From: Cognatundibacterium crateris
Lineage (GTDB): Bacteria > Pseudomonadota > Gammaproteobacteria > Burkholderiales > Burkholderiaceae_D
Direction of reading: 5' to 3'
Assembly: GCF_010078235.1 (NCBI RefSeq)
Contig: NZ_JAABOS010000001.1
Coordinates: 558,001 to 622,000, forward strand
DNA length: 64,000 nucleotides
Under the pieces are notes generated by a model that was given only the letters and a program-made list of their open reading frames with translations, was not told the origin of the DNA and did no database searches. How positions within the stretch are numbered: the stretch's first letter is position 1; every line of letters starts with the position of its first letter. Below are positions 1,361-26,343 of the stretch, one piece after another. The position numbers and the translations under genes are program-made.

Positions 1361-2677
1361 ATGACGCCTGGTACGCAAAAAAATTTTCCAACTGAGATGC
1401 ATCCTGTAGAAATCGGGATTTTGCGTATCATTGTTGTGCTATTCGTTGTTTTTTCCCTGCTGCCTTACGGTATTTCCTGGGATTACTCGGGCAAGTCAGA
1501 AGTCACGATGGAAGGTTCCCTGACCACTAAACTGGAATGGGGCAGCCTGTTCCTGATCTCAGGCATTTTGCTGTATCGCCATCTTGAAACCGCATTGAAG
1601 TATCTGCGAGCACTCAATCCGTTTCTGATCATGGTGCTGGTCTGGTGTATCGCCTCCAGTCTGTGGTCGCCGATAGGTGGTGTGACCTTCAAGCGCGCGA
1701 TCCAGTTATACGGCATTGTAGTGATAGGCATCAGTCTGCAACTCTCGCCCAAACCCCTGCATCTGATGATCAATTCCTTGATCTACACCTTGATGGCGAT
1801 GCTGATGCTGTCATTTGTAATGGCACTCGCATTCCCCAGCATAGGCATAGACTATGAGTTAAAAGGAGCCTGGCGTGGCGCACTGTCACAAAAGAATGAA
1901 CTGGGCCAGGTTGCAGCGATGTCTATCCTGTTCTGGCAGGTAAAAGCCTGCCTGGAACAGGTCAGCTACAGAACCCTGCTGCTGGCGATTTTATTCAGCT
2001 TTTTCATGCTGGTGATGAGCAAAAGCTCAACCAGCATGATCATCACTTTGTCTACCAGCGCTATATTTCACTTACTGCGTAAGCGGCATCTGAGCTCGGA
2101 TTATCCGCTGATACGGATTTTCCTTAGCCTGCTATGTATGGCTTTACTCGCTGTCTACGCGTTCTATATGTTTGAATCGCGCATGCCAACCTGGGCTGAG
2201 ATTTCTTCCCCGATTGCAGGCATTTTTGGTAAAGGCTCAGATCTGACCGGTCGCACCGATATCTGGGAGCTGGTCTGGCTGGAAATTAATAAGCACTGGC
2301 TGCTCGGTCTGGGCTATGGCGCCTTCTGGTTAGGGCCGGACAGTCTGTCACAGTTTGTCATCGATGCTTTGCACTGGATTCCCCTGCAATCGCATAATGG
2401 CTATCTGGATATTCTGAATGAACAAGGCATCATAGGCCTGGCCCTGACCATATTGACCCTGCTGTCGCAAGCCTACTATCTGACCAGGCTCGCACAGCAC
2501 GATAAAATCCAAGCTGCGTTCTGGACCGCGATGCTGCTGGTGATCGTTGTGACCAATTTCACAGAAAGCAGCCTGTTTCGCGGCTTTGGCTTCCTGAACG
2601 TTTTCTTTATTTTCGCCCTGATTGCCGTGACCTCAGCCAATCAAAGAAACCAGGAACAGCTGCGTCTGCAGCGCTGA
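1361..2677 (+). CDS. O-antigen ligase / Wzy-type polysaccharide polymerase family protein
   Basis: A 438-residue inner-membrane protein with about ten hydrophobic segments and a large periplasmic loop near residues 270-345. The Wzy_C hallmark is present: GRTDIWE near 297-303, then a loop ending HNGYLD (His345) followed by a membrane helix starting GIIGLAL. Members polymerise lipid-linked repeat units (Wzy) or transfer glycan chains (WaaL); in a locus with EpsE/F/G and a priming transferase, polymerase is the likelier role. No strong ribosome-binding site precedes the ATG at 1361, and an ATG at 1397 is an alternative start. It converges on the acyltransferase gene with only 4 bases between stops, so no room for a separate terminator. 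Confidence 0.85.
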   Translation: MTPGTQKNFPTEMHPVEIGILRIIVVLFVVFSLLPYGISWDYSGKSEVTMEGSLTTKLEWGSLFLISGILLYRHLETALKYLRALNPFLIMVLVWCIASSLWSPIGGVTFKRAIQLYGIVVIGISLQLSPKPLHLMINSLIYTLMAMLMLSFVMALAFPSIGIDYELKGAWRGALSQKNELGQVAAMSILFWQVKACLEQVSYRTLLLAILFSFFMLVMSKSSTSMIITLSTSAIFHLLRKRHLSSDYPLIRIFLSLLCMALLAVYAFYMFESRMPTWAEISSPIAGIFGKGSDLTGRTDIWELVWLEINKHWLLGLGYGAFWLGPDSLSQFVIDALHWIPLQSHNGYLDILNEQGIIGLALTILTLLSQAYYLTRLAQHDKIQAAFWTAMLLVIVVTNFTESSLFRGFGFLNVFFIFALIAVTSANQRNQEQLRLQR

Positions 2678-2681
2678 AAAC

Positions 2682-3746
2682 TCAGTGCTTGATACCAGCG
2701 TGCAGATAGCGCTGTCCCAAGCGCAGGAATGGCGCTTCAATCAAGCGCTGCGAGCCATCGGCCAACGCCAGGGAAGCCACCATCATCAAACAGAATTTCA
2801 CAGGCAGGGACAGGTCTGGCAGCCAGAAGCTGATGATACCGAACACCAGCCAATGGTAGAGATACAGCGAATAGCTGATGCGTCCTATATACACCATAGC
2901 AGGAGACGCAAGCACACGGCTGGCCATATTGGATTCTGTAATCAGATGCGTAAACATCAAAGCCAGCGCAATCCCCTGTATCGAGTAGCGCCAGGATTCG
3001 CGGAAATTCTCATCACGTATCAACAAGGAAGCGAGCAATAGCAAGGCCCCTGCAATAAGCGCTTTACGCTGCGCAAAGCGAGCAGCCAGACCAGGGTAGC
3101 GCGCCTGTATCAATGCAAAGCAGGTGCCATACATAATTGAATCTGCGCGCGTATCGGTTGCCTTATAGATGCGGTAATGAACCAGTTGATCGAGCCCCAC
3201 TCCATAAACCAGATACAAACGCCACAACAGTATCCCTACGATAAATGTCAGCAAGCCCGCAAGAAAACGCCTGGGGAAAGCGATACACACTGAGAACACA
3301 AACGGAAACAGCATGTAGAAATGCTCTTCGACCGCGAGTGACCAGGTGATCGATAAAGGCGGCGGGAACAGGTCGCCACTGAAACCGACAAAAATCCCGA
3401 AGTAATTTGCAAAATAAAAAAACACCGACATCAGTTCTATCCACTGCCACTGCACGCCCGCCAGTTGCATCACTCCAAGTGAGATCAGAACAAACACGAT
3501 CAGCGCTGGCATCAGACGAAAAAAACGACGTAAGTAAAATTTAGAAATACTGACCTGCGCTGTCTTATCCCACTCCACTATCATCAGGCGGGTAATGATG
3601 TAGCCACTGATAAAAAAGAAGATCGTCACGCCTAAACCACCAGGCACCATATGCCCCAACCAGGCATGGGAGATCAGTACCAACAGGATGGAAACACCAC
3701 GTAGCCCATCCAGGGCTTGCAGGCGTGAATGCGAGGCAGGATTCAT
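2682..3746 (-). CDS. Acyltransferase 3 family membrane protein (OafA/YrhL-like)
   Basis: 354 residues, about ten membrane helices. The N-terminal signature LDGLRGVSILLVLISH (residues 12-27) carries the Arg and His expected of the family, followed by GGLGVTIFFFISGY and the conserved SITWSLAVEEHFY segment. These integral-membrane enzymes move acetyl or other acyl groups onto surface sugars. As the last gene of the leftward epsE-F-G-glycosyltransferase operon (18 bases after the glycosyltransferase), it probably decorates the exopolysaccharide with O-acyl groups. It lacks the C-terminal SGNH extension found in some relatives. The acyl donor and target sugar cannot be deduced. Confidence 0.88.
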   Translation of the reverse strand: MNPASHSRLQALDGLRGVSILLVLISHAWLGHMVPGGLGVTIFFFISGYIITRLMIVEWDKTAQVSISKFYLRRFFRLMPALIVFVLISLGVMQLAGVQWQWIELMSVFFYFANYFGIFVGFSGDLFPPPLSITWSLAVEEHFYMLFPFVFSVCIAFPRRFLAGLLTFIVGILLWRLYLVYGVGLDQLVHYRIYKATDTRADSIMYGTCFALIQARYPGLAARFAQRKALIAGALLLLASLLIRDENFRESWRYSIQGIALALMFTHLITESNMASRVLASPAMVYIGRISYSLYLYHWLVFGIISFWLPDLSLPVKFCLMMVASLALADGSQRLIEAPFLRLGQRYLHAGIKH

Positions 3747-3764
3747 GTTAACTTCATTAAAAAA

Positions 3765-4703
3765 TCAGGAGGATTCCGCACTGCCATAGGCTTCGGGAAC
3801 TTTACCGGCAAAATGATTGAGCTTGCCAAACTGCGAGGCCACTATTCTGGCCCAGCGAAACGCACGCTGAGGTGCAAATAAAATCAATAAGGCCGCGCAC
3901 AGCATGCCTATCAATGCCTGCACTATTGCGCGCAGCCCAAGCCAGCAAGCCCTTAGCGGACGCTGTGCTGCGGGCGTCATCAGTAACTCGGTACGCATAA
4001 ACAGTTGCCCGGTCCGAAACGAGCGCTGCAATAACCATTTCCGGGTCGCGCGCTCAGCGGGAACAGATTCAAACACGGGTGCATCATCGCACCAGATCAT
4101 TTTCGCGCCTGCCATGTCGAGACGGCGGAATAAGACAGAATCTTCGCCACCGGTACGCCCGAACGCAGGATCAAACACCGCACCATTCTGCGCCTGAGCC
4201 AGTAACACACTGCGCCTGACCAAGACATTACCGCTGCGTGCATCATGGTGGTCAATGACCGTCCCATTCGGCAAGCGCCGTCTCTCAAAATAGCCACCGC
4301 GCCTGACCCAGTCTGGCGTACTGGCATCATACTCAGGAACAACAGGCGCAAACACCACATCGGCCTGATAGTTGAATTGCGCATTTCTGAGCTGGCGTAA
4401 CCAGGAACTGTGCGGGTATTCATCATCATCAACCATGCATATCCACTCGCCTTGCGCAGCACGAATCGCTGCATTTCGGGCCAGTGAGATATTGGAGACG
4501 GGTAAATGGATAAACGTCAGCCGCTCACCGAACAAGGCTGCCTGTTTCTGCAATTCAGACTGGGCAGAGTGAGCAGGATCGTTGTCCACCACAACAAGCT
4601 GTAGCGTAACATCCTGAATATCCTGCATCCGTATTGCATTCAACAAGCGTGCCAGCAACTGCGGACGCTTGAATGTGCAGATACAAATGCTGATATCGAC
4701 CAT
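3765..4703 (-). CDS. Family 2 glycosyltransferase
   Basis: 312 residues with a GT-A fold start: DISICICTFKRPQLLARLLNAI, then VVVDNDPAHS, and the metal-binding cluster MVDDDEYPHSSW, giving the nucleotide-sugar/metal site. Later GNVLVRRSV and GGEDSVLFRRL match the acceptor-side GGED-type motif. A hydrophobic stretch near residues 255-280 may anchor the C-terminus in the membrane. It lies one base after epsG and 18 bases before the acyltransferase, so it is co-transcribed with the chain-length and export genes. It probably adds one sugar of the repeat unit at the cytoplasmic face. Donor and linkage are unknown. Confidence 0.88.
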   Translation of the reverse strand: MVDISICICTFKRPQLLARLLNAIRMQDIQDVTLQLVVVDNDPAHSAQSELQKQAALFGERLTFIHLPVSNISLARNAAIRAAQGEWICMVDDDEYPHSSWLRQLRNAQFNYQADVVFAPVVPEYDASTPDWVRRGGYFERRRLPNGTVIDHHDARSGNVLVRRSVLLAQAQNGAVFDPAFGRTGGEDSVLFRRLDMAGAKMIWCDDAPVFESVPAERATRKWLLQRSFRTGQLFMRTELLMTPAAQRPLRACWLGLRAIVQALIGMLCAALLILFAPQRAFRWARIVASQFGKLNHFAGKVPEAYGSAESS

Positions 4704-4704
4704 G

Positions 4705-5649
4705 TCAGTTCTTCTGCTTAGAGACTTTTTTACTACGCCCAGGCATCCATTTCAGTAAAGCCTGGTGCCAGCGGCCTTTTCGTACCGGCTGATACTCGTT
4801 GTAAATCGTTCCTGCAATATCGACACCCGCCGCCTGCATATCATTTTTAACCTGACGCAGATCGCTGATACGGGTCAGGTCCTTCTTAGCCACCAGCAAG
4901 GCCGCACCGACCTGATGTGCGAGCATTTGTGCATCGGAGGCGCTGCCTGACGCATGGGTATCAACCACAAATGCATCAAAGTCTGCATAGCAGCTGTCCA
5001 GCAAATCTTTGATACGCGGGACTTGCAATAACTCCAGGGGATTTGGTGGTCGTGGCCCCGATGGTAAAAGCTGTAACCCTGGTAATAAGGGAATCAATAC
5101 TTCGCCCAGCTGTTGACGCCCTGCCAGCACTGATGACAAGCCATCGGGCGAGCCCAGCGCAAAGAACTGATGCAGGCTGCCAGTACGCAAATCACCATCA
5201 ATTAACAGTGTACGCCGCCCTACCTGTGACAAGGCAATCGCAAGGCTGACTGCCATATAGCTTTTCCCCTCGCCACTCACGGAGCTGACGACCGCAATCC
5301 GGATTTTGTCTGCTGCATCAAATTTCAACAGCAGCTCACTGCGCAAACGCCGGATTTCTTCCGCCTCTTTTGAAAATGGCTGGTGAAAAAAACGCAGAGA
5401 CGGATCAGCCACACCGTTTAACAGATTCTTAGAATTGAAACCAAACTGCTGGCCCAAGGCCTGATCAATCTGCGCCTGCGTCAGCAAACCGAGACGCAAT
5501 GCCGCATCACCAAAACGCAGTTTGTGCTGTCTTTGCTCATGTGCGATCTGCTCAATCTGCGCTTCTGTCAGCAAACCTTGTTGCAGGAACAGTTCACCCA
5601 ACCTGCCAACCTGATGCCGCTCAGCCCGCATAATAATTGTCTCAGACAT
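4705..5649 (-). CDS. epsG: EpsG-type chain-length/tyrosine-kinase-like ATPase
   Basis: 314 residues from the ATG at 5649, chosen because AAAGGAG sits five bases upstream and because an upstream start would overlap epsF by over 100 bases. Residues about 12-75 hold two tandem LLT-AQI helical units resembling the MshEN/GspE N-terminal domain. Then comes a CpsD/CapB-type P-loop ATPase: SSVSGEGKS (Walker A), LLIDGDLR (Walker A') and FDAFVVDTH (Walker B). The usual C-terminal tyrosine cluster of BY-kinases is absent; the tail is basic (Arg/Lys-rich). Together with EpsF it should form the bipartite regulator of polymer length. It overlaps epsF by 8 bases. Symbol follows the Methylobacillus eps naming. 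Confidence 0.82.
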   Translation of the reverse strand: MSETIIMRAERHQVGRLGELFLQQGLLTEAQIEQIAHEQRQHKLRFGDAALRLGLLTQAQIDQALGQQFGFNSKNLLNGVADPSLRFFHQPFSKEAEEIRRLRSELLLKFDAADKIRIAVVSSVSGEGKSYMAVSLAIALSQVGRRTLLIDGDLRTGSLHQFFALGSPDGLSSVLAGRQQLGEVLIPLLPGLQLLPSGPRPPNPLELLQVPRIKDLLDSCYADFDAFVVDTHASGSASDAQMLAHQVGAALLVAKKDLTRISDLRQVKNDMQAAGVDIAGTIYNEYQPVRKGRWHQALLKWMPGRSKKVSKQKN

Positions 5650-19915: not shown

Positions 19916-22558
19916 TTAATCCAGCTTTTTCAGCGCCTCGCGCACATAACTGACATTACTGCTGTTCGGCGCCAGCTCCAGATAGCTTTGATAGGCTTTT
20001 CTGGCCTTCTCTTTGTCAGCGCTACGCGCCAGCGCATCGCCCAGGTTCATATAGGCGATGGCCCGTGAAGGATCCATGCTGATGGTGTTTTCAAACCAGC
20101 GTGCCGCCTCAGGATATTTCTGCTGTTTAAAATAAACAAAGCCCAGATTATTGGCCGCCAGTGCAAAGTCAGGACGATATTTGAGCGCCTCGGTGAAGGC
20201 CGCTTCCGCCTCGGCATATTGCTTCTCTTTGTAGAATTGCAGACCCTGATCATTCGCTCTTTGTGCCAATTGACGTGAGGAGCCCTGCACCAGCTTAGGG
20301 GCGGAAATTTTCTGTTCACCGCCATTGAGGTTCTTAATCACTATCGGCGCCTCACTGCCCGGCTTGGCGGCCACCACACTGAGTTTATTATTCAGTGCGA
20401 TTTCTTCAGAAGACAGTTGGTTGGTTTTGGCACTTAAATATTCAGTTTCGGCACGCAGTTCAAATACAAATTCGCCACCCTCTGAGCCTGGCAAGCTGCC
20501 AAAGGCAGGCGTCTGCGCTGACATGCCTGCGACCGCCGGTGCTGTATACGCGGCCAGCTCCGTGGCGGTAATGATGCCATCCCCATTCAGATCCGCCTTA
20601 CCGTTCAGAGCCTGCAGCAAAGTCCAGGTAAACACGGAATGCCCATTCGGGCCACCATCTGCCACTAACTGATCGGCACCACCGGCAGTCAGCATCTGAC
20701 GCCCCAGGCGTTTCGCATTATCTTTCAGGAAGGCGGCATTACCGCCACGCGTGAGTCCCAGCCCGCTATAACAGGCATCCATGACAAAGAACACATGCTT
20801 AGCCTGCAGGTTTTCTGCAATATTCTGCAAATCCGTCATCGGAATTGCATCAACCGACAACTGCGCCGGATCAGAATCGACCGGAATGATATACCCCAGG
20901 TTACGTCCCGAACTCAGCTGACGGGTGGCACCATGCCCTGCGAAAAAGATAAAGACGCGATCATCTTTTTTCAGTTTTCCATGACCTAACTGATCATGAA
21001 ATGCGGCCAGTATATGATTGCGCGTGGCTTCCGCATTACTCAGCGTAATCACCTTTTCTCTGGCAAAACCAAAGCGGTTAATCAGGGTGTCGCGAATCGC
21101 ATTGGCATCCTGTACTGCATATTGCAGCTTAGGCCATTTCTGATAATCGTTAATGCCGATCACCACGGCCCAGCTATCCTGATACTCGCTGCCCAGACTG
21201 ACTTTTTCCGGTGCGGCCTGACGCTCCTTACCGACCTTGAATTCGCTGCCATCCCAGGCCGCAAAGCGATAACCATCCGCAATCAGTTTATCCAGCACCA
21301 GCGGCAAGGCCTTGACGGTACGTTCATGGATATCATGGAACAGGATGATGCCGCGCTGCTCTTTTTCGACTGAGGACAGCACACGTTCTACGATAGAATT
21401 CGGTACCGGGTCGGCCCAGTCCAGCGAATCGATATTCCACATCACCGAGCGCAGACCCAGCTTGCTCAGTAATTCCATACCCTCTTTGTTCTTCGCACCG
21501 TAAGGAAAGCGGAATAAGGGCGAGCGGCCGGGATCTATCGCTTTGAGTAACTGATCGGTCTGTCCGATTTCAGCGCGCAGATTGTCGCCACTTTCTTTCG
21601 ACAATAAGGCGTGACTGTAGCTGTGATTCGCCAGGGCATGGCCTGCTGCTTTCAGACTTTTGCTGATCTCCGCATTTTTATTTAGCTTTTCCTTGCCCTG
21701 AGCATCAATGCTGCCAACGTTACGACCGACTTCAAAAAAGACCGCAGGCACATTGTATTGCTTCAGTATCGCGGCGATCTCCTGGGTATAACTGGCATGC
21801 GGACCATCATCGAAACTCAGCACCACGGTTTTTGGCGGCAAACCACGGCCGAATATCTCTTTTTCAGCACTCGCATCCGGAATGTCCGGATAAGGCAGAA
21901 TCACGCCGTAATCTTTCAGTATCTGCTCGCGCTGATAAATTTTCCTGAGCTTGGCGAGATAGTCATCCCACTTCTCACGTTTAAGCTCAATAGCGCGGGT
22001 TTCAAAACGCGCGAAAATCGCCTTGAGTTCCTGGTCATAGTTTTGCTCTATGTCTGCCAGCGCACTCAAATCTTCCGAGATGCGCTTATGCTGCTTGACT
22101 GCTGGCAGGGTCTGTTCTTTCGCCACCAGCCGCTGCAAATACGTGAGCACCTCGCGGAAGGCAAGGCGGTCGGCATCGTATAAGTTGTCGCCCGATTCTA
22201 TGTAATTGAGTATGCCATCCACATAACTGAGGCGCTGGCTGGCGACCTGGCTGGATGTTTGCTCCAGCCTTGCCTCCAGCTTTTTCAAACGCGCCAGATT
22301 ATCGTGAAACAAGGCGCTGCCTACCCGTATCGCTTCTTTGCGTTCTTTCTCATTCAAGGTTTTTTCATCCGCCAGCAAGACGATGGTCTGGCGGTAGGCC
22401 TTGAGCAAGGCGGGTAATTCTTCCGGCAATTCCGCCTGAGCAGTGGCCGATTCGGCAAGCACCTGAGCCTCACTGTGCGAAGGGGATTGGTAGAGATAAG
22501 CTGCGCCAGCAATGCCGCTCAGACTTAACGCGGCGGCAATCAGATATTTGAATTTCAT
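19916..22558 (-). CDS. Polysaccharide deacetylase - caspase-like peptidase - TPR fusion protein
   Basis: 880 residues. A signal peptide or anchor (residues 1-22) is followed by a helical region to about 235 with coiled-coil character. Residues 240-440 are a complete NodB deacetylase domain: SFDDGP (Asp250, Asp251), HSYSH (His312, His316), RFPYGA (Arg350), DSLDW (Asp380) and LFHDI (His408). Residues 460-700 are a C14 caspase/metacaspase-like domain: WAVVIGINDY, then FAGHGA (His542) and DACYSG (Cys596) as catalytic dyad. A canonical EF-hand loop, DLNGDGIITATE (656-667), lies in it. TPR units fill about 765-870. One polypeptide thus combines a cell-wall or glycan deacetylase with a peptidase and a protein-binding scaffold. 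Export to the periplasm is likely. It is monocistronic. Confidence 0.9.
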   Translation of the reverse strand: MKFKYLIAAALSLSGIAGAAYLYQSPSHSEAQVLAESATAQAELPEELPALLKAYRQTIVLLADEKTLNEKERKEAIRVGSALFHDNLARLKKLEARLEQTSSQVASQRLSYVDGILNYIESGDNLYDADRLAFREVLTYLQRLVAKEQTLPAVKQHKRISEDLSALADIEQNYDQELKAIFARFETRAIELKREKWDDYLAKLRKIYQREQILKDYGVILPYPDIPDASAEKEIFGRGLPPKTVVLSFDDGPHASYTQEIAAILKQYNVPAVFFEVGRNVGSIDAQGKEKLNKNAEISKSLKAAGHALANHSYSHALLSKESGDNLRAEIGQTDQLLKAIDPGRSPLFRFPYGAKNKEGMELLSKLGLRSVMWNIDSLDWADPVPNSIVERVLSSVEKEQRGIILFHDIHERTVKALPLVLDKLIADGYRFAAWDGSEFKVGKERQAAPEKVSLGSEYQDSWAVVIGINDYQKWPKLQYAVQDANAIRDTLINRFGFAREKVITLSNAEATRNHILAAFHDQLGHGKLKKDDRVFIFFAGHGATRQLSSGRNLGYIIPVDSDPAQLSVDAIPMTDLQNIAENLQAKHVFFVMDACYSGLGLTRGGNAAFLKDNAKRLGRQMLTAGGADQLVADGGPNGHSVFTWTLLQALNGKADLNGDGIITATELAAYTAPAVAGMSAQTPAFGSLPGSEGGEFVFELRAETEYLSAKTNQLSSEEIALNNKLSVVAAKPGSEAPIVIKNLNGGEQKISAPKLVQGSSRQLAQRANDQGLQFYKEKQYAEAEAAFTEALKYRPDFALAANNLGFVYFKQQKYPEAARWFENTISMDPSRAIAYMNLGDALARSADKEKARKAYQSYLELAPNSSNVSYVREALKKLD

Positions 22559-22849: not shown

Positions 22850-23797
22850 CTAAACAACAGGTGCAAGCGGCAATTGCAAGCTAAAGCAACTGCCCTGACC
22901 AAGCTGACTTTGCACGCTCAGGCTGCCCCCATGTTTGATTGCAATGCTGTAACTCATCGACAAACCAAGCCCGGTTCCGTGTCCTACATCCTTGGTTGAA
23001 AAAAAAGGATCAAATATCCTTTGCAGATTTTCGGCGGCGATGCCACAGCCTGAGTCGATGACTTCAATGATGGCCCATTCCCTGTCCTGTTCAGTATGTG
23101 ACCTGAGCACCAGCCGTATCAATCCCTTTCCATGACAGGCATCAACGGCATTATTGAGTAAATGGCTGAGTATCAGTTGAACTTCCAGCTCATTGCCAAT
23201 CACAACAATATCGGACCCGAGGATTTTTTCAATATGGCATTGCTGCTTATGCTCACCAAGTGTCGCCAGCGCCATCGCAATGCTGCTGTGCAGACTGATG
23301 CTCTGCTCTTGCTGCTGCCCAAGTTCCGTGTATTGCTGCAGCTTACTGATCAGATCGCGTACCCGTGACAGGCCATGCTCGGTCTCATCCAGTAAAATGG
23401 GCAATTCCTCCTGCAGGTAAGGCAAGTCCAGCTGTTCCAAGGTAGTCCGCAAATTGCTGAGCTGGGCAGCAGTCGGGGTGTTGTCCAGTGCCTCAGCATG
23501 CTGAGCCAGTGCTATCAATTGCGCTGACCATTCACGCAGACACTTGACGTTACTAATACAAAAGCCAATCGGATTATTGATTTCATGGGCTAGTCCCGAA
23601 GTGAGCTGGCCCATGGCAGCCAGCTTTTCTGTCTGCAGCAACTGGTTACGGGTATGCTGCAAATTGCCCAGTGTCTCGTTTAACTCCAGTACTTTGTCGT
23701 ACAAAACCCTGGTTTTTTCATCCAGCAGTTTTTCAGCCAATAACCTGGCCTGGCGCTCGCGCTGATAGGCACGCAGATATGCATCAGCTTCGCTCAT
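22850..23797 (-). CDS. Histidine kinase partner of H-NOX (HnoK-like)
   Basis: 315 residues, soluble, no membrane helix or PAS domain. An N-terminal coiled coil (residues 1-55) leads to the H box TSGLAHEINNPIGF (His71) and a HATPase_c domain: LSHLLNNAVDAC (N box), VIDSGCGIAAENL (G1), FDPFFSTK and GTGLGLSMSYSI (G2). The start codon overlaps the H-NOX stop (ATGA), so the pair is translationally coupled. In characterised systems, nitric-oxide-bound H-NOX inhibits such a kinase, feeding a phosphorelay that often ends in cyclic-di-GMP and biofilm control. No response regulator is adjacent, so its partner lies elsewhere. Confidence 0.87.
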   Translation of the reverse strand: MSEADAYLRAYQRERQARLLAEKLLDEKTRVLYDKVLELNETLGNLQHTRNQLLQTEKLAAMGQLTSGLAHEINNPIGFCISNVKCLREWSAQLIALAQHAEALDNTPTAAQLSNLRTTLEQLDLPYLQEELPILLDETEHGLSRVRDLISKLQQYTELGQQQEQSISLHSSIAMALATLGEHKQQCHIEKILGSDIVVIGNELEVQLILSHLLNNAVDACHGKGLIRLVLRSHTEQDREWAIIEVIDSGCGIAAENLQRIFDPFFSTKDVGHGTGLGLSMSYSIAIKHGGSLSVQSQLGQGSCFSLQLPLAPVV

Positions 23798-24342
23798 GGC
23801 TGATGGAAATGTATGTGTAAGCGGCAGCGTTCCGCGCCATCATGCATACACTCGGGGTGTTCTATCTGCACTTGCTGCGAAAACTGCGCTGCCGCCCCTT
23901 TTATCAAACCTACCGCAGCATGACACAGCTTACGTTTGGACTGGTAATACATCACCAGCATTTGCTCATTGCTATTGTCATAGTCGAAGCTGGGCAAATA
24001 GGCATCCGGATACAAGCGCCGTACTTCCTTATGAATCACTTTATCAACCGACAGCAAAAAAGGACGTAAATCATTTAGCTGACGTAATTCCGGCGGAAGC
24101 GAGTTGTAAAGACGGGAAAACAAAAATTCACCGAAGGCCTCAACTAACTGCGTGGCTGGCAAATTTGTTTTTTGAGACAGCAAAGCCACCAAGGCCAACA
24201 ACTCTGCATCCTCATATTGCTGCCCTGACGTATAAATCCCACCTGAAGCGGGATTAAGTTCAGTCAGCACTTCGTCCCACATAGGCATGCCCAGTTTTTC
24301 GATGACCATATCGGACAGCGCGGTAAAAATTGATCCTTGCAT
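23794..24342 (-). CDS. H-NOX heme nitric-oxide-binding sensor
   Basis: 182 residues from the ATG at 24342, chosen for GGAAGG eight bases upstream and because family members begin M-G-(I/L)F here (MQGSIFTALSDMVIEKLG). The proximal heme ligand is His104 in VIHKEVRRLYPDAYLPSF, and the propionate-clamping YxSxR motif is Tyr133-Ser135-Arg137. Both are decisive for H-NOX. The distal pocket around residues 1-80 shows no obvious distal tyrosine by eye, as expected for an NO-selective member. It forms a two-gene operon with the kinase. Cytoplasmic. Confidence 0.92.
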   Translation of the reverse strand: MQGSIFTALSDMVIEKLGMPMWDEVLTELNPASGGIYTSGQQYEDAELLALVALLSQKTNLPATQLVEAFGEFLFSRLYNSLPPELRQLNDLRPFLLSVDKVIHKEVRRLYPDAYLPSFDYDNSNEQMLVMYYQSKRKLCHAAVGLIKGAAAQFSQQVQIEHPECMHDGAERCRLHIHFHQP

Positions 24343-24530
24343 ACATGAGCCTTCCACAAAGTGAATGAGCAAAACACAGATGCTGCCTGCGTACATTCAG
24401 CACCTGATGGCTAGTTCAGCTTATGTGAAAAGTTTCCGAACCACAAATTTCTTTTTTGAAATTTCCAGAACTTTTGCAGTGATTAACATTAACGCACTTG
24501 AGGCGGCAGCATCTGGCTGCTGAATTGAAA

Positions 24531-24675: not shown

Positions 24676-25647
24676 TCAGACACCGCCACGAGTTTGATTC
24701 GCAACGACTTTAGCCGTACCAGGACTGGCAGCAGGCTGGGTTTTGATCACTTGCATCGCGGTCGCAATCAAGCCGCTCATATCGCCGAGGTTAGCCGGTA
24801 CGATAATCGAATTGTTGGTCTTCGCCAGATTGCCAAACGCACCTACATACTGCTCTGCTACCTTCAAGTTGACCGCATCGGCTCCGCCCGGTGACTGGAT
24901 CGCCGCTGCAGTCTTACGTATCGCTTCAGCACTCGCTTCAGCAATCGATAAAATCGCAGCTGCCTGACCTTCGGCACGGTTAATCGATGCCTGTTTTTCG
25001 CCCTCAGAGCGGGCAATAGCTGCTTCGCGTTCACCGTTAGCGATATTAATCTGTTCCTGCTTACGGCCTTCGGAAGCGGCGATCAGTGCACGCTTTTCAC
25101 GCTCGGCTGTAATCTGTGCCTGCATCGCATGTAAAATTTCTTTAGGTGGCGTTAAGTCCTTGATTTCATAGCGTAAAACCTTGACGCCCCAGTTAGCTGC
25201 AGACTCATCGATCGCACTCACGATTGTGGTATTGATGTGATCGCGCTCTTCAAAGGTTTTGTCCAGTTCCATCTTACCGATCACAGAACGCAAGGTGGTT
25301 TGCGCGAGCTGAGTAATCGCCGCAATGTAATTTGATGAGCCATACGAGGCGCGCATTGCATCAGTAATCTGAAAATATAAAATCCCATCGACCTGCAATT
25401 GCGTATTGTCTCTGGTAATACAGACTTGTGGCGGTACATCCAGCGGGATTTCTTTGAGGCTGTGTTTGTAAGCAATGCGGTCTATGAAAGGAACCACAAT
25501 ATTCAAACCTGGTCCTAAAGTTGCATGATATTTCCCCAGACGTTCTACCACCCAGGCATGCTGTTGAGGCACGACGTTAATCGTTTTGATGACGAACACC
25601 AGAGCCATGATGAACAGTATCAGAGCCACTCCACCGATATTTTCCAT
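24676..25647 (-). CDS. SPFH/Band 7 paraslipin (QmcA-like membrane protease regulator)
   Basis: 323 residues from the ATG at 25647. A single N-terminal membrane helix (residues 4-22) is followed by the Band 7 domain: VVPQQHAWVVERLGKYHATL, PGLNIVVPFIDRIAYKHSL and LDKTFEERDHINTTIVSAID. A coiled coil rich in Glu/Ala/Arg (EREAAIARSEGEKQASINRAEGQ) drives oligomerisation, and the C-terminus is Pro/Thr-rich. Such proteins form membrane microdomain scaffolds. The gene follows an NfeD gene in the same direction (gap 106), the standard paraslipin/NfeD pairing. Confidence 0.92.
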   Translation of the reverse strand: MENIGGVALILFIMALVFVIKTINVVPQQHAWVVERLGKYHATLGPGLNIVVPFIDRIAYKHSLKEIPLDVPPQVCITRDNTQLQVDGILYFQITDAMRASYGSSNYIAAITQLAQTTLRSVIGKMELDKTFEERDHINTTIVSAIDESAANWGVKVLRYEIKDLTPPKEILHAMQAQITAEREKRALIAASEGRKQEQINIANGEREAAIARSEGEKQASINRAEGQAAAILSIAEASAEAIRKTAAAIQSPGGADAVNLKVAEQYVGAFGNLAKTNNSIIVPANLGDMSGLIATAMQVIKTQPAASPGTAKVVANQTRGGV

Positions 25648-25753
25648 GTTATTACCTTTATTGTTATTGAGAGAAAAAGTCGAAACGATGTATCTGTGAT
25701 CGTTTCGCATTCAGCTACTACATGCAAACCACTGCTGCCAGTATTCAGCAAAC

Positions 25754-26188
25754 TCAGACTGGTCTGACAATCAGACGACTACCCTGTACTTCCTGTATCT
25801 GATACGAGCCAGGCAATCCTGCGCCGTGATGCAGCTCGACATCCCACATCGCGCCGCGATACATTGTTCTGGCCTGAAAGCTGCCGTCACCCAGGTCACG
25901 CCACTGCTCAACCTGCAAGCGCTGGCCGACATCCATATTCACATTCGGATCACGGGCCGCTTGCTGACCTGGTTTCCAGCCATAAGGGCTTTTATGCAGT
26001 ATCAGTGTGGCCAGACCACCTACCAAACCCGCCACGATCAGTTGCGTACCGCTGGCTGCGCCCAAAAAAGCGACCACAGCAGCAGCGGCTAAACCCAGCG
26101 CTATCATTAATAAATAAAAAGTACCGGTAAGCAGTTCCAGACTCACTACCACACCTGCTGCGATACACCATAGGGTCCAAGCACTCAT
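25754..26188 (-). CDS. NfeD family membrane protein
   Basis: 144 residues from the ATG at 26188, with AGGAGA eight bases upstream; a longer frame to 26215 lacks such a site. Two to three membrane helices occupy residues 3-75 (SLELLTGTFYLLMIALGLAAAAVVAFLG). The C-terminal OB-fold domain (residues 95-144) has GRRL-like GQRLQVEQW and GSYQIQEVQGSRLIVRPV. It is the short NfeD1b type lacking the ClpP-like protease domain. It pairs with the paraslipin downstream in membrane-domain organisation. Confidence 0.88.
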   Translation of the reverse strand: MSAWTLWCIAAGVVVSLELLTGTFYLLMIALGLAAAAVVAFLGAASGTQLIVAGLVGGLATLILHKSPYGWKPGQQAARDPNVNMDVGQRLQVEQWRDLGDGSFQARTMYRGAMWDVELHHGAGLPGSYQIQEVQGSRLIVRPV

Positions 26189-26343
26189 GTTTCTGTCTCC
26201 TGTTCTTATTGGCATTGCAATTAGTATTGCAATACGTAATGCATTTTGGTGAATAAAACGACAAAAATCAGCGGTAATCGCTGCCTAATGTATACACCGT
26301 TTTTATGAAAGTTGCATGACTGCCAGTCAGCGTGACAGCAATA

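Follow-up and report, generated by a model that had tools for sequence, protein, structure and literature searches.

A betaproteobacterial member of the Xanthomonas-type (NodB–C14–TPR) metacaspases with a conserved EF-type loop in its caspase domain

Is a bacterial protein that joins a polysaccharide deacetylase to a caspase in one chain a new architecture, and does it serve cell death or the cell envelope? This question is raised by a gene of Cognatundibacterium crateris within a 64,000-nucleotide stretch of contig NZ_JAABOS010000001.1 (assembly GCF_010078235.1, positions 558,001 to 622,000; hereafter the window), where a single open reading frame (ORF) on the minus strand (19916..22558) starts with ATG at 22558 and stops with TAA at 19916–19918. 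An earlier note on this DNA had placed a deacetylase, a caspase-like peptidase, a calcium-type loop and tetratricopeptide repeats (TPRs) in one chain, and stated that it knew of no characterised protein in which the domains follow this order. The four parts are backed by sequence, conservation and models; the remark on domain order failed, since exactly this order was already published in 2012 (PMC3501461).

In that study, Asplund-Samuelsson et al. (2012, PMC3501461) named the order PF01522–C14–TPR the Xanthomonas-type metacaspase on the basis of 17 sequences from Xanthomonas, Xylella, Stenotrophomonas and two Acidobacteria, and defined it by a polysaccharide deacetylase, a C14 domain, one to three TPRs, a conserved dyad and a mass of 97–100 kDa; by their account, trmE shares the operon in three genera, and yidC and rnpA lie nearby. 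A novel architecture is thus ruled out. The window protein has the defining domain order, dyad and mass (97.2 kDa), and it shares descent with xanthomonad-type sequences: the C14 domains of the fusion proteins form one clade of 27 among 51 tree rows (SH-aLRT 96, by a quick method that gave a long-branch warning elsewhere in the tree), and this clade takes in the xanthomonad-type rows L138 and L141. Orthologues in a second family of the class (16 of 149 genomes matched, one copy with an internal stop) are 58–61% identical from residue 33–55 to 879, retain both loop and dyad, have a single Cys within the aligned stretch, and sit between yidC and mnmE (= trmE) at all 12 loci fetched (L169–L180), as the printed setting describes; from this setting we infer that these genomes and L138/L141 are xanthomonads. 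In contrast, mnmE or yidC was near the gene in none of 89 loci of the window kind (flanks of 1.5 kb for L001–L009 and up to 10 kb for L021–L100), although the trmE operon accompanies rather than defines the published type. Because domain order and descent are shared while mnmE and yidC are absent from these loci, the window protein is, as judged from sequence, a betaproteobacterial Xanthomonas-type metacaspase, of one kind with the published proteins but in a different genomic context. It further differs in its host, a group unnamed in section 10 of PMC3501461, and in its plain hydrophobic leader, where the class-level orthologues L101 and L102 have a lipobox.

Sequence and structure models together show a chain made of a hydrophobic leader, a helical region, an intact, predicted metal-dependent CE4 domain, an intact caspase fold with dyad and EF-type loop, and TPRs (Table 1). 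Pfam matches above cut-off were Polysacc_deac_1 at 240–371 (1.4e-27), Peptidase_C14 at 463–655 (6.7e-19) and TPR_2 in three stretches, the best at 799–831. The NodB residues listed in the earlier note (Asp250/251, His312/316, Arg350, Asp380, His408), its caspase dyad (His542 and Cys596) and its loop at 656–667, which reads DLNGDGIITATE, are all in place, and Pfam agrees on the TPRs at the end. Of the checks it had proposed, the domain search recovered the deacetylase, C14 and TPR parts, but the EF-hand remained below the Pfam cut-off, whereas structure prediction recovered the CE4 barrel, the caspase fold and the TPR solenoid. The prediction alignments comprised 51 of 59 non-redundant rows (A2) and 51 rows from 59 stretches minus near-copies (A4).

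The distribution of the protein was followed from genus to class. The nearest named copies, from U. curvum and U. rugosum, are 97% and 96% identical to the window protein, and by these the window would belong to Undibacterium (Oxalobacteraceae). Counting the window's own, 25 genomes of the genus contain nine copies that are full or nearly so and one piece cut off by a contig edge; of 245 genomes in the family, 58 matched at E 1e-60, a figure that takes in four genomes whose sole match is the NodB-only form, together with a few copies that are broken or incomplete; and three of 369 genomes matched in the class sample, the window's own included. Among named genomes, 327 stretches matched the pattern and 248 encode a relative of some kind; of those, the best 80, one of them a fragment, were used, and their hosts include the environmental Betaproteobacteria Undibacterium, Janthinobacterium, Massilia and Duganella. 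A copy in a Fluviicoccus (Moraxellaceae) metagenome-assembled genome (L096) falls among betaproteobacterial sequences, by horizontal transfer or through a binning error.

In a 90-row alignment (with three genomes represented twice, as L003/L026, L004/L024 and L006/L025, and a fragment, L067, that covers the columns scored), the NodB residues, the His/Cys dyad and loop positions 1, 3, 5 and 12 were invariant in all rows; position 6 of the loop (Gly661) was Ser in seven. Ratios of nonsynonymous to synonymous change (dN/dS) against L002, which is 97% identical, were 0.018 for NodB, 0.006 for C14, 0.042 for TPR, 0.089 for the helical region, 0.219 for residues 1–46 and 0 for both short linkers. 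The corresponding values against L022 were 0.007, 0.009, 0.030, 0.075 and 0.251, with 0.133 and 0.032 for the linkers.

The caspase domain was modelled separately, because the full-length model was poor at 595–639 and 653–716; the separate model revealed a complete caspase fold with both halves and the dyad. The window protein has no cysteine other than Cys596, and the same holds for 80 of the 90 rows; the extra cysteines of the other ten lie at or before leader position 18 in nine cases, partly through start-codon choice, and at 489 in one (L064). Two acidic residues were invariant or nearly so in 51 C14 rows, and Asp484 and Asp594 are matched in the alignment by Asp residues of MALT1. Cleavage after basic residues (at P1) would be the corresponding specificity. 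Since the protein has a single Cys, it lacks the Cys of the metacaspase specificity pocket; MALT1, too, has none at what is taken to be the aligned pocket place. The domain thus has the full caspase fold, dyad and aligned acidic residues in common with metacaspases, orthocaspases and the paracaspase MALT1, and differs from them in the EF-type loop of its second half, the missing pocket Cys, probable export and fusion to CE4. A second C14 protein is encoded on another contig of the same genome (L106, G000:C23:360334-360780; a 389-residue frame) and has the His/Cys motifs without the EF-type loop.

The loop itself matched EF-hand_5 of Pfam at 654–669 with 14.0 bits (E 0.036) against a cut-off of 25.9, and we therefore call it an EF-type loop rather than a member of the EF-hand family. 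A PROSITE-style EF-loop pattern matched the protein once, compared with 58 of 20,000 shuffles of the protein, and matched 83 of the 90 alignment rows; the loop has ligands at positions 1, 3, 5 and 12 and lies in a helix-loop-helix in the caspase model. Because the loop is real, invariant and of the right geometry, it likely binds calcium, as far as sequence and model can tell. All six NodB forms of the phylum sample carry it (window counted), and none of 33 other C14 proteins did in an earlier sample, of which 30 were the top PF00656 hits of the phylum and biased to one C14 type. The pattern was present in five of the 24 nearest non-NodB C14 proteins, with a longer, looser version in three more (L157, L159, L161), and so the loop is not peculiar to the NodB fusion; a loop general to C14 was considered and dropped, given the counts of these two samples. 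One of the five, L143, is a short frame beside frame breaks and may be no more than a piece of a NodB protein. Among plasmid records, 147 matched the caspase part, none with at least 60% identity, and the best (L167) is without the loop ligands. A literature search on calcium or EF-hands in bacterial caspases, with subscription papers mostly outside it, found no description of the loop in the Xanthomonas type; only PMC6426788 paired "EF-hand" with "orthocaspase", for seven archaeal proteins, and the main text of PMC3501461 contains neither "calcium" nor "EF-hand". The loop, kept in every aligned close relative, is a new and testable detail.

The NodB domain has the CE4 barrel fold with five motifs and a complete metal triad; by the roles known for CE4 enzymes, we take Asp250 to be the base and Asp251, His312 and His316 the metal ligands. 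Its nearest folds include the peptidoglycan deacetylases Bc1960, PgdA and Bd3279, which, unlike the window protein, are not known to have a fused protease or TPR. A Bd3279-like cap is not claimed, as the Foldseek match to 5jp6 spans 363 columns with a root-mean-square deviation of 23.6, and VIA-align covered 230–439 only, with the helical domain of Bd3279 outside the match. Relatives without a caspase occur in the same family: L181–L184, four of the five found, consist of leader, helical region and NodB (476–515 residues), are 35–38% identical within residues 13–449 and end after NodB, where the window protein continues with C14 and TPR; Pfam on the one scanned found the deacetylase alone. The genes of L181, L182 and L183 lie a few kb from a MraW/RsmH-family gene (identified in L181, homologous ORFs in the other two). 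As this gene usually belongs to the division and cell-wall cluster, its position is a weak hint of a peptidoglycan role.

The leader at residues 4–23 is hydrophobic and forms a helix in the model. In L008 (genome G013, 1498–4755), one 1086-residue frame joins a TauE/SafE exporter to the NodB–C14–TPR protein where the leader would otherwise stand, a fusion that may be real and may have arisen by deletion. The single Cys, the hydrophobic N-terminus, the lipobox of L101 and L102, and the L008 fusion argue for a membrane-tethered, exported thiol enzyme. The protein is thus probably exported and anchored, with the remainder presumably in the periplasm.

Taken as a whole, we give about an even chance to the explanation that this metacaspase of known type is a membrane-tethered envelope deacetylase under protease and TPR regulation, and not a death device. 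The leader would fix the protein in the inner membrane with the remainder in the periplasm, where the CE4 domain would take acetyl groups off the N-acetylglucosamine (GlcNAc) residues in peptidoglycan or in a comparable polymer, by analogy with its nearest folds. Calcium in the EF-type loop would hold the caspase domain in shape, and this domain would cleave after basic residues, either in its own 441–458 linker, with the deacetylase half thereby released or retuned, or in a protein of the envelope that the TPRs grip. A cut in the linker would yield pieces of about 50 and 47 kDa; for Xanthomonas, a 55 kDa caspase was reported, and the 2012 authors suggest processing of the 97–100 kDa product (PMC3501461), an analogy that is suggestive only. 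Several results weigh against this explanation. The full-length model had a predicted template-modelling score (pTM) of 0.38, so the arrangement of the domains is unreadable from it, and none of the EF-hand Pfam models reached its cut-off in the window protein. Replacing the pocket Cys, which the window protein lacks, by Ala lowered the activity of AtMC9 by 90% (PMC5756287). Folds of CE4 enzymes with other substrates scored nearly as high (acetylxylan esterase 23.9, Aspergillus nidulans chitin deacetylase 22.8), and no NCBIfam deacetylase model reached its own cut-off for the NodB domain; peptidoglycan is therefore not singled out as the substrate. Finally, clustering of the neighbours at 80 loci, with flanks up to 10 kb (many contigs being shorter), revealed no constant operon partner and no constant wall or polysaccharide neighbour, with each of the 45 most widespread clusters in at most 5 of 19 genus labels.

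An enzyme acting on an exopolysaccharide of biofilm or capsule, with the protease as its regulator, is unlikely but deserves consideration, since CE4 domains use many polymers and the NCBIfam scores for the chitooligosaccharide deacetylase NodB (1.3e-30) and for PgdA (1.1e-32), both under cut-off, are close. However, the exopolysaccharide enzyme PgaB gave only a weak and partial match (1.6e-8, best stretch 237–281), the ten window neighbours scanned include no polysaccharide gene, and the narrow genus spread of the neighbour clusters points the same way. It is likewise unlikely that the C14 domain is a pseudo-protease which keeps fold and dyad yet serves mainly for binding or as a scaffold: the pocket Cys is missing and, according to PMC5756287, an intact dyad is no proof of activity, but the dyad is unchanged in all rows, the acidic pair is invariant or nearly so, C14 has the dN/dS values of 0.006 and 0.009 given above, and the lone Cys is retained although other cysteines are rare.

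The earlier note had reasoned that metacaspases are calcium-activated and that the loop may be the switch, with Ca2+ turning the protease on or off as a signal. The loop proved real and invariant in its ligands, in a helix-loop-helix, and metacaspases of types I–III are Ca2+-dependent (PMC5756287); the argument itself is doubtful, and the switch idea stays open but weakened and is improbable in our judgement. Calcium sites of metacaspases are placed elsewhere, in p20 and a p10 loop, and the only orthocaspase characterised processed itself with no additional activation, its calcium-independence being ascribed to a missing p10 domain (PMC5756287). The loop also occurs among the nearest non-NodB C14 proteins. 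Periplasmic calcium follows the medium, so that a structural role is no less likely than a switch, and the loop stands alone whereas EF-hands usually pair. An improbable variant would have Ca2+ in this loop of the p10-like half license the lone-Cys periplasmic caspase, which would cut the linker or a TPR-held partner and so set the activity or place of the fused deacetylase; if true, this would tie a bacterial caspase to cell-wall chemistry and place its calcium gate at a site that differs from the sites in eukaryotic metacaspases. For the cell-death coupling that the earlier note had also raised, the present analysis found no evidence, and a stress-activated executioner whose deacetylase helps to dismantle the wall is very unlikely. 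PMC3501461, citing older work, ties the Xanthomonas form to post-exponential death of X. campestris pv. glycines, whose caspase-deficient mutants did not undergo death, but it also notes the mismatch between the 55 kDa enzyme and the gene product; Asp substrates are unsuitable because prokaryotic orthocaspases refuse Asp at P1 (PMC5756287), and no death-related gene was among the ten neighbours scanned.

Table 1. Features of the gene and predicted protein, in window coordinates.
Feature	Coordinates	Strand	Basis
Whole gene, NodB-C14-TPR protein, 880 aa, predicted 97.2 kDa	19916..22558	minus	ORF and mass calculation
Hydrophobic leader, presumed inner-membrane anchor, residues 4-23	22490..22549	minus	hydropathy and model helix 4-23
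All-helical region, residues 47-236, shared with caspase-free relatives	21851..22420	minus	model and blastp
CE4/NodB de-N-acetylase domain, residues 240-440	21239..21841	minus	domain searches and fold comparison
Asp250 and Asp251, motif 1 SFDDGP	21806..21811	minus	sequence and alignment
His312-x3-His316, motif 2	21611..21625	minus	sequence and alignment
Arg350, motif 3 RFPYG	21509..21511	minus	sequence and alignment
Asp380, motif 4 DSLDW	21419..21421	minus	sequence and alignment
His408, motif 5 LFHD	21335..21337	minus	sequence and alignment
NodB-caspase linker, residues 441-458, candidate processing site	21185..21238	minus	pLDDT (predicted local distance difference test) <50 at 447-456; cleavage inferred
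C14 caspase fold, both halves, residues 459-705	20444..21184	minus	Pfam and model
Catalytic His542	20933..20935	minus	sequence and alignment
Catalytic Cys596, sole cysteine	20771..20773	minus	sequence and alignment
EF-hand-type calcium loop (putative), residues 656-667, with a helix on either side, in the caspase fold's second half	20558..20593	minus	alignment, model and pattern
TPR solenoid, residues 760-880	19919..20281	minus	Pfam and model

Upstream on the same strand, after a gap of 291 bp, lie a gene for H-NOX (haem-NO-binding) followed by a histidine kinase (22850–24396, minus) and, farther upstream, a weak NfeD-like gene and an SPFH/band-7 gene (24676–26215, minus). H-NOX is probably unrelated, because it is near the caspase gene at just one of 80 other loci (L021); the OYE, NfeD and SPFH neighbours of the window were each found at seven of 80, with the NfeD-like and SPFH genes at L021–L027, all Undibacterium. 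The widest neighbour cluster occurred at 15 of 80 loci, and one cluster of 17 loci spans two genus labels.

Among bacterial caspase homologues, the Xanthomonas type is physically joined to a second enzyme that can be assayed. Because both active sites, the calcium-type loop and the single Cys are conserved across environmental Betaproteobacteria, these offer culturable hosts in which the link to cell death proposed in 2012 can be tested against a role in the envelope.
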